This document shows positions 58,773 through 64,000 of a DNA stretch of 64,000 nucleotides, in pieces; within the stretch, counting starts at the first letter, position 1; the number at the start of each line of letters is the position of its first letter. Source of the stretch: Salinibacter pepae. Its GTDB lineage: Bacteria; Bacteroidota; Rhodothermia; Rhodothermales; Salinibacteraceae. The stretch is taken from positions 2,756,501 to 2,820,500 of the forward strand of contig NZ_CAMTTE010000001.1 in the NCBI RefSeq assembly GCF_947077775.1. Reading direction: 5' to 3'. The notes beneath the pieces were generated by a model, which was not told where the DNA came from, searched no databases, and worked only from the letters and a program-made list of their open reading frames with translations. The translations under genes and the position numbers were made by a program.

Positions 58773-59813
58773 ATGAGAGCCGCCGTCTTCCACGAGCCGG
58801 GCGACATCCGCGTCGAGGATGTGCCCGATCCCAGCATCGAAGCGCCCACCGACGCCATCCTGCGCATCACCCGCACGGCGATCTGCGGGTCGGACCTGTG
58901 GTTCTACCGGGGGCACCGGGACTACGAGGCCGGCTGGCGCACGGGCCACGAGCCGATGGGGGTGGTTGAGGACGTGGGCAGTGAGGTGCGCTCCCTGGAG
59001 CCCGGAGACCGCGTGCTGGCGCCCTTTGCGATCAGCGACGGCACCTGTGAGTTTTGCCGGCAGGGGCTGCACACCTCCTGCGTGCACGGCAACGTCTGGG
59101 CCGCAGAACACGACGGCGCCCAGGGGGAGGCCGTCCGTGCGCCGCAGGCCGACGGAACGCTCGTCAAAATCCCCGAACGCGCAGAAGGGGACGCGTCGCT
59201 GCTCCGGGCGCTGTTCCCACTGACCGATGTGATGGGCACGGGGCACCACGCGGCCGTGTCGGCGGGCGTGGAGGCCGGCTCGACCTGTGTGGTCGTTGGC
59301 GACGGGGCCGTGGGGCTCTGTGCCGTGCTGGCCGCCCAGCGGCTCGGGGCCGAGCGCATCATTGCGATGGGCCACCACGAGGAGCGGCTCGAGAAGGCCC
59401 GCGGCTTCGGCGCGACGGACATTGTCTCCAGCCGCGGGGAAGAGGCGGTCGAAGAGGTTCGAGAAATGACGCGTGGCGGCGCACGTCACGTCATGGAGTG
59501 TGTCGGCGCCGCCTCGGCGATCGAAACGGCGATCAGCGTGTGCCGGCCGGGAGGGACGATCGGCTACGTCGGGGTTCCGTTCGGGGCCGAGGACGGAGGC
59601 CTGGACATGTTTCGGCTCTTTCGGGAGAACATCACGCTGCAGGGCGGCATCGCGCCGGTGCGGGCGTACATCCCCGAGCTGATGGACGACGTCCTTGACG
59701 GGACGCTCGACCCGTCGCCCGTCTTCGACAAGACCATCGGCCTGGAAGAGGTGCCCGACGGCTACGCCGCGATGGACGAGCGGGCGTCCATCAAGGTGAT
59801 GGTGGAGCTGTAG
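58773..59813 (+). CDS. zinc-dependent alcohol dehydrogenase family protein
   Basis: This 346-aa MDR enzyme binds catalytic zinc through TAICGSDL and GHEPMGVV and has the NAD(P) motif VVGDGAVGLCAVLAAQ. The structural-zinc loop reads SDGTCEFCRQGLHTSC: three Cys, with Asp in place of the first. The substrate may be an alcohol or aldehyde. It is tail-to-tail with a second alcohol dehydrogenase gene, 38 bases between the stops. Confidence 0.9.
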   Translation: MRAAVFHEPGDIRVEDVPDPSIEAPTDAILRITRTAICGSDLWFYRGHRDYEAGWRTGHEPMGVVEDVGSEVRSLEPGDRVLAPFAISDGTCEFCRQGLHTSCVHGNVWAAEHDGAQGEAVRAPQADGTLVKIPERAEGDASLLRALFPLTDVMGTGHHAAVSAGVEAGSTCVVVGDGAVGLCAVLAAQRLGAERIIAMGHHEERLEKARGFGATDIVSSRGEEAVEEVREMTRGGARHVMECVGAASAIETAISVCRPGGTIGYVGVPFGAEDGGLDMFRLFRENITLQGGIAPVRAYIPELMDDVLDGTLDPSPVFDKTIGLEEVPDGYAAMDERASIKVMVEL

Positions 59814-59851: not shown

Positions 59852-60919
59852 TCACACCTCTGCCTGCGTCCTGCCTCCCCCGAAGTCATCAATCACGGCG
59901 ATGCCCGTGCCGGCGAAGGTGCCCATCTGCCGCAGGCGATCGGCCGCCTCCGGAAGCGAGATCGTCTGCCGGACGAGCTGACGGGGATGGAGGCGGCCCG
60001 TCTCGATCATGTTGAAGAGGGCCGGATAGCGGTGGGCCTGCAGGCCGTGTGCGCCGCGCACCTCCAGCTCGTCGGCCACCACGCGGTCGAAGGGAATGGC
60101 GGTGCGTGCGTGCTCGTCCACCAGGAGGCCGACCTGGACGTGTCGCCCGTGCGTCCGCAGGTTCGCCACGGAGTTGCGGCACGTGTCCGGGCTGCCCAGG
60201 GCGTCGAGGGAGAGGTGGGCGCCGCCCTGGGTGGCCTCGCGGACGGCGGCGGCCACGTCCTCGGTGTCGTCGGCGTTGATCGTGCGGCGGGCCCCCACCT
60301 CGTCGGCGAGCGCGAGGGCCGGATCGGCAATGTCCACCGCGACGACCCGGGCGCCGGCGGCCCGGGCAATCATGACGGCCGACAGGCCCACGCCGCCGCA
60401 CCCGTGGACGGCCACCCACTCGCCGCTGCGCACCGCTCCCTGGTCGACCACGGCCCGGAAGGCGGTGGCGAAGCGGCAGCCGAGGCTCGCCCCGGTGACC
60501 GCGTCGATCGACCCCGGAAGGCGGACCAGGTTCTCGTCGGCGTAGTCGATGGCCACAAATTCCGCGAAGGCGCCCGGGCCGGAAAACCCGGGCTGAAACT
60601 GGTCCGGGCACACCTGGTGTTGCCCGGCCCGGCATTGCTCGCAGGTGCCACAGCCGCCCACGAACGGCACCGTTACGCGCTCCCCCCCAGACCACTCCTC
60701 CACACGGTCCCCGACCGCCGTCACGATTCCCACGACCTCGTGCCCCGGCACGTTCGGCGGGGTGATCATCGGGTCGTGTCCCTTCCAGCCGTGCCAGTCG
60801 CTCCGGCACACCCCACACGCAAGCACCTCCAGCACGACGCCCCGCGGCGCAGGGGGGGGCCGTGAAACCGTCCGGAGCGTCAGGGGCGCGTCAAATTCGT
60901 CGTAGACGAGGGCCTTCAT
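59852..60919 (-). CDS. zinc-dependent alcohol dehydrogenase
   Basis: This 355-aa MDR enzyme has catalytic-zinc motifs LACGVCRSDWHGWKG and GHEVVGIV, the four-Cys structural loop CGTCEQCRAGQHQVC, and the NAD motif GCGGVGLSAVMIARAAGARV. The N-terminus MKALVYDEFDAPLTLR is standard. It is a zinc alcohol dehydrogenase of unknown substrate, convergent with the gene at 58773. Confidence 0.92.
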   Translation of the reverse strand: MKALVYDEFDAPLTLRTVSRPPPAPRGVVLEVLACGVCRSDWHGWKGHDPMITPPNVPGHEVVGIVTAVGDRVEEWSGGERVTVPFVGGCGTCEQCRAGQHQVCPDQFQPGFSGPGAFAEFVAIDYADENLVRLPGSIDAVTGASLGCRFATAFRAVVDQGAVRSGEWVAVHGCGGVGLSAVMIARAAGARVVAVDIADPALALADEVGARRTINADDTEDVAAAVREATQGGAHLSLDALGSPDTCRNSVANLRTHGRHVQVGLLVDEHARTAIPFDRVVADELEVRGAHGLQAHRYPALFNMIETGRLHPRQLVRQTISLPEAADRLRQMGTFAGTGIAVIDDFGGGRTQAEV

Positions 60920-61975: not shown

Positions 61976-62797
61976 ATGACCGACTCGCCTGTGTACTCCG
62001 CTCAAGACGCTCCCAACTCCGCCGAGGCGGAGGGGGCGACGTACCTCAAAACGTGCAGCCGGTGTGGGCAGCTGGTGCGGATGGCCCGGTCCGAGGATGG
62101 GACCTGGCGCTCTCTGGAGCCGGCGGCAGAGGGGGCCTCGTCCCAGCACCCCCACGAATGCGGGTCCGTCCCCAGGATCAGTCAGGACTGGAGCCTTCAG
62201 GACCTGACTCACCCACTCACCTGCCGGCTCGACTGCTGGTGGTGCGGGGAGGAGGTGTACCTACACACCGACGGCAGCGGCCCCTTCACGCTCTTCGACA
62301 ACCTGAGCTGGCCGTGGCCGACCCACGACTGCTGGCATCAGCAGCGTGACGAGCGAGACCGGGCCCTCCTGAAGCTCGAAAGCGATCTTCGGGCCGGTGG
62401 GTACCAGGGGCAGGGCCGCCTGGTCAACCTCGCGCCCTCCTCCATTCCGGACGCAATTCCCCCGAAGGGCCGCAAGAACCCGCCGGTGCTTCAGATTCGC
62501 CTCTCGAGCACGGATCACCAGATGGTGGACCGGGCCGTCCGGCAGATCACCCAGTTCGTATCCGACCGCCAGCCCCGGGCGCCGGTCGCGGTGCCCCTTC
62601 CGGTCGGCAAGAAAGCCGCCGCGGACGAGCGCCAGGGCAGGACAAACGGACCGCCGAGCCGTGACGAGTCCTTCAGCCAGCACATCCACCACCGCGCGAT
62701 TGAGATGTGGACGGCAGGGCCCAAGCTGGTCGCCCAGCTCGGCCAGGTGCAGCTGCCGGAGGCCGTAGACGTCACCGTCCGGCAGGCCAAAAGTTGA
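61976..62797 (+). CDS. zinc-ribbon protein with ribosomal protein S10-like C-terminal domain
   Basis: The 273-aa protein has an N-terminal Cys-rich part: CSRCGQLV (Cys27, Cys30), HPHEC (60, 62), then CRLDCWWCGEEV (83, 87, 90) and PWPTHDCWH (117-121). The second set resembles known zinc ribbons with a FDNLSWPWPTHDC end. Residues 171-270 align with ribosomal protein S10/NusE: LQIRLSSTDHQMVDRAVRQI matches its IRLKAFDHRLIDQ block, VAVPLPVGKK its PIPLPTRK block, and the HIHHRAIEMW to VQLPEAVDVTV stretch its IRTHLRLVDI to LDLAAGVDVQI end. It is not the S10 gene of the ribosome, since no ribosomal-protein operon surrounds it and it is longer. It is followed by exonuclease and ssb genes on the same strand. 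Function unknown; a translation, antitermination or RNA-binding role is inferred. Confidence 0.75.
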   Translation: MTDSPVYSAQDAPNSAEAEGATYLKTCSRCGQLVRMARSEDGTWRSLEPAAEGASSQHPHECGSVPRISQDWSLQDLTHPLTCRLDCWWCGEEVYLHTDGSGPFTLFDNLSWPWPTHDCWHQQRDERDRALLKLESDLRAGGYQGQGRLVNLAPSSIPDAIPPKGRKNPPVLQIRLSSTDHQMVDRAVRQITQFVSDRQPRAPVAVPLPVGKKAAADERQGRTNGPPSRDESFSQHIHHRAIEMWTAGPKLVAQLGQVQLPEAVDVTVRQAKS

Positions 62798-63057: not shown

Positions 63058-63576
63058 ATGAACGTTTTTCTCGATACAGAGACCACCGGCTCGGGGCCCC
63101 AGGATGCCGTGATCGAGCTTGGCGTCGTCGCGGCCCAGGGAGAGGTGCTCATTCACACCCTCGTGGCGCCCCTGGCGCCGGTGACCCGTGGGGCCCGGCG
63201 GGTGCACGGCATCACGGATGAGGAGCTGGCGGAGGCGCCCCCGTTCTCGACGGTTGCCGACCGGCTGGACACGGTCCTAGCCGACGCCGGGTGCGTATGG
63301 ACCTTCGGGCCCACCTACGACCGGCGGATGCTGCTTCAGACCGCTGCCCTGGCCGAGTGCCCCGAAACCCACCGCCGGATTCAGGACAGCACGTGGCAGG
63401 ATCTGCAGCCCGACGCCACCCGCGTCCTCGGAGACGCGGAACGGGTCGCGCTCACCGACGCGGCGACGCGCCTGGACGTATCAATTCCGACGGAGGGGCA
63501 TCACCACCGCGCCCTCTACGACGCCAAACTTGCACGCCGGGTGTGGACGAGCGTCCGCCGCCCCGCCTCTGGTTGA
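63058..63576 (+). CDS. DEDDh 3'-5' exonuclease (DnaQ-like)
   Basis: The 172-aa exonuclease has ExoI FLDTETTG (Asp6, Glu8), ExoII WTFGPTYDRRML (Asp), and ExoIII GHHHRALYDAKLA (His and Asp). It degrades single-stranded DNA or RNA 3' to 5'. The GARRVHGITDEELAEAPPF segment is typical of DnaQ-like proteins. The ATG at 63058 gives MNVFLDTET. It lies 164 bases before ssb and may work with it in DNA repair or replication. Confidence 0.88.
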   Translation: MNVFLDTETTGSGPQDAVIELGVVAAQGEVLIHTLVAPLAPVTRGARRVHGITDEELAEAPPFSTVADRLDTVLADAGCVWTFGPTYDRRMLLQTAALAECPETHRRIQDSTWQDLQPDATRVLGDAERVALTDAATRLDVSIPTEGHHHRALYDAKLARRVWTSVRRPASG

Positions 63577-63740: not shown

Positions 63741-64000
63741 ATGGCTCGAAGCGTAAACAAAGTTGTCCTGATCGGCAACCTCGGGGACGATCCGGAGCTC
63801 CGATATACCGGCAGCGGGACGGCCGTCTGCAACATGAGTCTCGCCACCAACGAGTCCTACACCAACAGCGACGGGGAGGAGGTCCAGCAGACCGAATGGC
63901 ACGACGTGGTGGCCTGGGGCCGCCTCGGAGAAGTGTGCAACGAGTACCTCGAAAGGGGCTCGCAGGTGTACTTCGAAGGAAAGATCGAGACCAACCAGTG
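63741..64000 (+). CDS. ssb: single-stranded DNA-binding protein, truncated by window end
   Basis: The ATG at 63741 opens MARSVNKVVLIGNLGDDPEL, the canonical SSB N-terminus, followed by TGSGTAVCNMSLATNESY, TEWHDVVAWGRLGE and YLERGSQVYFEGKIETN. These are the OB-fold strands with the conserved Trp and aromatic residues that stack on DNA. The gene runs past 64000, so the C-terminal acidic tip cannot be seen. About 86 codons lie in the window. Confidence 0.95.
   Translation, partial: MARSVNKVVLIGNLGDDPELRYTGSGTAVCNMSLATNESYTNSDGEEVQQTEWHDVVAWGRLGEVCNEYLERGSQVYFEGKIETNQ

Follow-up and report, generated by a model that had tools for sequence, protein, structure and literature searches.

The window analysed here, 64,000 nucleotides of a 3.59-Mb contig of the Salinibacter pepae genome (G000), contains a gene for a paralogue of ribosomal protein S10, hereafter S10L (61976..62797, forward strand), which starts with ATG and continues for 273 codons without interruption, just where an earlier note on this DNA had placed it. 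The 273-residue product consists of two putative zinc ribbons followed by an S10-like domain, an assignment based on the open reading frame, a match to Pfam PF00338, selection and a structural model. The hexamer TGTATG at the start is common to four genomes. The next gene on the same strand encodes a 172-residue exonuclease of the RNase_T family (DEDDh type; 63058..63576), recognized by its family match, and is followed by a second ssb gene (ssb2; 63741..64000, forward strand), which encodes 171 residues, runs beyond the end of the window and was assigned through the SSB family match of its orthologue in G003, another Salinibacter genome. SSB2 is a complete SSB with the C-terminal sequence DDDLPF, and the product of ssb2 (G000:C1:2820241) is 85% identical to the main SSB over 85 amino acids. 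A gene for a UvrD-type helicase lies further downstream, preceded in three of four genomes by an ORF that resembles hutH by eye. The nuclease and ssb neighbours and the free-standing position described earlier are thus borne out: S10L lies away from the ribosomal protein genes, and a separate canonical rpsJ is present elsewhere in the genome (G000:C1:3224553-3224843). A scan for promoters and terminators around S10L gave nothing informative. In G003, two ORFs resembling an IS transposase (L036:7253-7971) stop 25 bp short of the S10L start codon on its upstream side, and the region upstream of S10L is unlike that of the other genomes. Elsewhere in the window, two adjacent converging genes (58773-59813, forward; 59852-60919, reverse) both resemble zinc-dependent alcohol dehydrogenases by eye.

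The S10-like domain (residues 172-270; 62489..62785, forward strand) was delimited with Pfam, phmmer, AlphaFold2, Foldseek and VIA-align. Residues 173-268 align to positions 1-97 of the 98 of PF00338 (Ribosomal_S10), scoring 39.7 bits where 21.2 are required (E 5.9e-10), and a six-frame search with the same profile gives 42.5 bits; the forms found in G006, another genome of the genus, and in G018, a genome of another genus of the same family, score 31.7 and 45.2 bits, respectively. Searching the PDB sequences with phmmer returned S10 chains (best E 6.6e-7), and with a profile of four sequences the E-value falls to 4.4e-13. An AlphaFold2 model of the full-length protein has a mean pLDDT of only 46.9, with blocks at or below 55 up to residue 140, and therefore the structure search was run on the model of the S10 domain alone (residues 169-273, four sequences), which has a mean pLDDT of 74.1 and core blocks mostly at 81-89. 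This model runs strand-helix-strand, disorder at domain residues 44-63 and again strand-helix-strand. Its best Foldseek match has an E-value of 1.5e-5 (prob 1.00), the best 50 Foldseek rows from the PDB all come from entries for ribosomes, NusE or S10, and the best 50 VIA-align rows have Z of 11.0-12.4 across 79-95 residues. The likeness to S10 along residues 171-270 that had been noticed by eye is therefore real: neither a failure of the model to take up the fold nor a lack of a profile match, both of which were looked for, was seen. S10L is a paralogue of uS10 on the S10/NusE fold and belongs, as a divergent member, to the family of S10-domain proteins.

Residues 21-126 contain two tandem CxxC...HxC clusters, C27-x2-C30 ... 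H60-x-C62 (zinc ribbon 1, residues 27-62; 62054..62161, forward strand), read from the sequence, and C87-x2-C90 ... H117-x-C119 (zinc ribbon 2, residues 87-119; 62234..62332, forward strand), read from an alignment. The earlier note had pointed out these same Cys/His clusters, and its ribbon in front of the S10 domain stands except in number, since it was headed as a single ribbon and two are found in tandem. In the ribbon alignment C27 and C30 of ribbon 1 are invariant while H60 and C62 are not. Ribbon 2 is of the type CxxC..V...F..L..PW..HxC, and an alignment of seven proteins has 12 invariant columns, the four ligands of this ribbon all among them. Ribbon 2 is 53% identical over 49 residues and 40% identical over 48 residues to proteins of Nostoc plasmids (L033:5857-6420; L034:5866-6435), and 29 plasmid records, from Serratia, Rhodobacter, Yersinia and Sinorhizobium among other sources, contain similar stretches (E up to 1). 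Relatives were also found in the same class among 394 genomes searched, in G154 (L108:1513-2436; E 6.5e-5) and G345 (L109:859-1839; E 9.1e-5, both one-genome E-values), each with two CxxC ribbons, and the G154 gene directly follows a type I restriction specificity gene. These ribbon-module proteins, including those of the Nostoc plasmids, have the pattern CxxCG..V...FFDxLGPPWxKHPC. No Pfam model reached its cut-off on the ribbons, either in S10L or in the ribbon-module proteins, and no ribbon relative was matched in phages. Two candidate assignments were rejected as falling under their cut-offs: a ribbon of the ribosomal protein S27a type in S10L (13.8 bits, cut-off 22.3) and, for the protein of G006, DUF6083 (16.3 bits, cut-off 27.1).

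What does the company that S10L keeps tell us about its role? The exonuclease (E <= 1e-8) is present in four of the 13 genomes of the genus, all of which have S10L (G000, G003, G004 and G007), and is absent from the other nine; among 31 genomes searched, there is one more, distant match, in G030, which belongs to another family. In all four the gene order is S10L-exonuclease-ssb2. An ssb gene is present in 13 of 13 genus genomes; the four with the exonuclease carry two apiece, including the copy at this locus, and the other nine have one (eight genomes) or three (G010). Outside Salinibacter, similar company is seen in a single instance. G018 encodes a short S10L of 86 amino acids without ribbons on a 15.5-kb plasmid-like contig (C178) with a Rep3 initiator and an ORF that is ParA-like by eye; there the Rep3 gene, S10L and the gene for another RNase_T exonuclease, whose C-terminus is ExoX-like, follow one another on one strand (L061:3827-6382). 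Together with the occurrence of ribbon relatives on plasmids and beside a restriction specificity gene, this arrangement favors a reading in which S10L serves a small DNA-processing module, made up of the exonuclease and its own SSB and perhaps the UvrD-type helicase, as a structural or nucleic-acid-binding adaptor and has no role in transcription. We regard this reading, the main rival of the one preferred below, as less likely than not. The four genomes fall into a single clade (100/100) of a tree of the 2-kb rpsJ locus, and therefore the linkage may be a single event and hitch-hiking. G006 has S10L without the exonuclease and a single ssb, so that either S10L preceded the exonuclease and ssb2 or G006 lost them. 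The intergenic gaps (about 160-260 bp) are poorly conserved, and the operon therefore remains putative. The exonucleases of the window and of G018 are only 27% identical over 98 residues, and the helicase is not peculiar to the module, helicases 45-49% identical to it being present in five other genomes of the genus. Among the PADLOC models of anti-phage defence, taken as individual families, S10L matches none, the exonuclease is matched by DEDDh and PDC-S48, and the helicase by 47 models, including RTasHel and GajB; general nucleases and UvrD helicases can match such models.

Does S10L serve the ribosome? In the domain model, the disordered stretch corresponds in position to the loop by which ribosomal S10 binds the ribosome, and the site of this loop is degenerate in S10L (residues 211-231; 62606..62668, forward strand; pLDDT < 50). 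An alignment of 30 distinct canonical S10s (29 of the order and one of Clostridioides) with five distinct S10L domains was used to compare loop and core. Compared with four others of the order, the canonical S10 of S. pepae is 77-86% identical over the loop and 80-91% identical over the core, and its loop is 55% identical to that of Clostridioides, whereas the four long S10Ls are 72-97% identical to one another in the core but only 17-62% in the loop. The loops of four canonical S10s carry a net charge of +2 to +4, those of the S10Ls one of -11 to +1, which is negative in four of the five, and the G018 relative has a loop of 10 residues instead of 22, with 12 missing. Of 11 loop positions invariant in canonical S10s, 10 are not retained across all five S10Ls; in the core, 14 of 40 such positions are retained in all five and 26 are not. 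S10L also falls below the cut-offs of both bacterial S10 equivalog models of NCBIfam, with less than half of the required score (NF001861, 36.9 vs 85 bits; TIGR01049, 35.2 vs 72.75 bits). S10L is not classed as ribosomal protein S10 because the defining features tested were not found in it, and nothing in these comparisons makes it resemble a second copy of the ribosomal protein. That S10L is an alternative S10, or a hibernation or assembly factor, using the place of S10 in the 30S head is quite improbable: membership of the S10-domain family speaks for such a role, and there is a precedent for paralogue swaps in bacterial ribosomes in the zinc-binding bL31A and bL31B (excerpt of PMC10931766), but the scrambled or shortened loop, the missed equivalog cut-offs and the long N-terminal extension speak against it. 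The earlier suggestion of a ribosome-directed regulator is likewise not supported, because the conserved ribosome-binding loop is lost. We infer instead that S10L acts outside the ribosome.

Full-length S10L, with both ribbons and S10 domain, as the earlier note had wished to see in homologues, is present in five of the 13 genus genomes (G000, G003, G004, G007 and G006), the other four proteins being 56-99% identical to that of the window. Within the order, six of 114 genomes have S10L, five of Salinibacter and G018 with its short form. A scan of an 84,980-species collection with strict patterns, which may have left out records near the window, gave three loci, on contigs of G007, G006 and G018, and the S10L profile (E <= 1e-16) found three of 394 genomes of a phylum sample, all Salinibacter, many of the 23 genomes listed having been scored on 12 first-look candidates only. 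In a PF00338 census of 198 phylum genomes at least 95% complete, 190 matched and eight did not, and a second S10-domain match occurred in three (G000, G003 and G007, the genomes of that sample that carry S10L), each time S10L. Another genome, G013, has two canonical-type S10 matches (G013:C18, G013:C500); it is a 540-contig draft with 5% contamination and probably a mixed bin. In the rpsJ-locus tree all five carriers of full-length S10L fall in a clade of seven with G005 (94% complete) and G011 (83% complete), in which S10L was not found. In a tree of S10 sequences, which has long branches and 29 of its 30 canonical rows from one order, the S10Ls, including the plasmid-like G018 copy, lie on one side of a branch (100/99); S10L may have arisen through duplication of the Salinibacter rpsJ or through an older transfer. 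Two scans of viral contigs with strict patterns found no relatives of S10L, nor did PHROGs give a match; that the S10 part came from a phage or a plasmid was considered and set aside on these scans and on the matches in phage and plasmid records. Among the matches listed (in one of the searches 30 of 47 records), the S10 matches in such records are 25-33% identical, and all of those with a named gene under the match are rpsJ or ribosomal protein S10. One of them, a Clostridioides difficile record listed as a plasmid (NZ_CP149721.1; L101), carries a fusA-tuf-rpsJ-rplC operon followed by more ribosomal genes, and at least 12 Clostridioides plasmid records match S10 among the matches listed.

Across the S10L gene dN/dS is 0.05-0.23 in six pairs, with dS close to saturation in two pairs involving G006; it is 0.15-0.23 in the five pairs with dS of 0.5-2.3, and reaches 0.74 in the loop in two pairs, where 20-21 codons make the values rough. 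Judged from these substitution rates, S10L is under purifying selection. It is accordingly very improbable that S10L is a duplicate of rpsJ that is decaying or has no function. For such decay one could cite its patchy distribution, the failure to find it in two genomes within the carriers' clade (one of them 83% complete) and the transposase-like ORF close upstream in G003, but against it stand the open frame, the low dN/dS and the conservation of the zinc ligands of ribbon 2 and of the S10 core.

uS10 has a dual role, in the ribosome and, as NusE, in transcription (excerpt of PMC10931766), and the surfaces of the second role can be looked for in S10L. In Escherichia coli NusE, the helix-1 residues contacting NusB include H15, R16, D19 and V26, according to a figure legend of the review PMC8341153. 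When their equivalents were placed via the DHxxxD motif, those of H15 and D19 (H181 and D185) were retained in five of five distinct S10Ls, while those of R16 and V26 differ among them. The canonical S10 of the window's genome also retains H15 and D19; R16 is absent from the canonical S10s of the order, too. H15 and D19 are invariant across the 30 aligned canonical S10s, and therefore their retention in S10Ls may just reflect fold or ancestry. On the face of NusE opposite NusB bind RNA polymerase and the C-terminal domain of NusG (NusG-CTD), and a loopless NusE of 86 residues binds all three partners (excerpt of PMC4642336). The G018 S10L has the same length as this NusE-delta-loop construct, as used with NusB (same excerpt). 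Among the best 50 VIA-align rows the lowest rmsd, 2.4-2.5 A, is to the NusE chains 3r2c, 3r2d, 3d3c and 2kvq (79-85 residues), in part because the query's own loop is disordered, and ribosomal S10 chains have Z equal to or above that of these short chains. A boxA-like motif (E. coli-type consensus) has one match in the 64 kb, 1.8 being expected, far from S10L. The surviving S10 surfaces leave a NusE-like function possible but do not amount to evidence of binding.

Our preferred reading, held tentatively and at less than even chances, is that S10L is a non-ribosomal NusE-like adaptor with the following, conjectural mechanism. The S10 core would serve as a protein-docking module, like NusE in antitermination, with NusB on one face and NusG-CTD or RNA polymerase on the other; the ribbons would bind nucleic acid or a further partner; S10L would stay out of the 30S subunit; and it could bring the exonuclease and SSB encoded beside it to transcribing or replicating DNA. 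Against it speak, besides the varying R16 and V26 equivalents, the many canonical core positions not retained and the lack of a boxA-like site near the gene, the context of the locus, which points to DNA metabolism rather than transcription, and the G018 form, which has no ribbons. The NusE-like adaptor is nevertheless ranked most likely, with the exonuclease/SSB adaptor close behind and some probability left for functions other than those named here, and both adaptor readings can hold together; the linkage of S10L, exonuclease and ssb2 in Salinibacter may go back to one event. A stronger form, in which S10L is a dedicated, ribosome-free NusE on the transcription machinery and the ribbons, exonuclease and SSB couple transcription to nucleic acid processing, seems doubtful; if it is true, S10L would be to NusE what RfaH is to NusG.

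The findings suggest a ribosomal protein turned separate adaptor. To our knowledge, the two jobs of S10, in the ribosome and as NusE, have been separated so far only through engineering of the loop. A paralogue that has kept the core and lost the loop would be a natural case of this separation, and would allow testing which S10 surfaces suffice off the ribosome. In S10L, moreover, a zinc-ribbon module that occurs on plasmids and at restriction loci is joined to the fold of a ribosomal protein. In the open-licence literature, no description of an S10L-type protein or of a dedicated NusE paralogue was found among the matches listed.

How does S10L compare with known systems? With uS10/NusE (PF00338, rpsJ) it shares the fold, the order of strands and helices and the motifs IxL..DH...D, PxP, HxRxI and LP. 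It differs in having N-terminal zinc ribbons, in lacking the conserved ribosome loop, in being accessory in distribution and in not lying beside ribosomal genes; measured against the canonical S10 of S. pepae, core identity is 31-34% for the full-length S10Ls and 40% for the G018 form. The ribbon module of plasmids and restriction loci has in common with S10L the C,C,H,C and F..L..PW spacing of ribbon 2, but its proteins have other C-terminal parts, with weak C2H2-like matches or none and without an S10 match, and in those of the Nostoc plasmids the second ribbon alone is clear, unlike S10L with its two. Loop-shortened NusE in complex with NusB or NusG-CTD (3d3b/3d3c, 3r2c/3r2d, 2kvq) has the same compact S10 core and the conserved H15/D19 equivalents, but is a trimmed ribosomal protein (for E. 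coli, excerpt of PMC4642336), whereas S10L is a separate gene with ribbons. RfaH and LoaP, specialised paralogues of NusG and thus of another protein family, are parallel to S10L in concept only, as dedicated paralogues of a general Nus factor (excerpt of PMC6391919).
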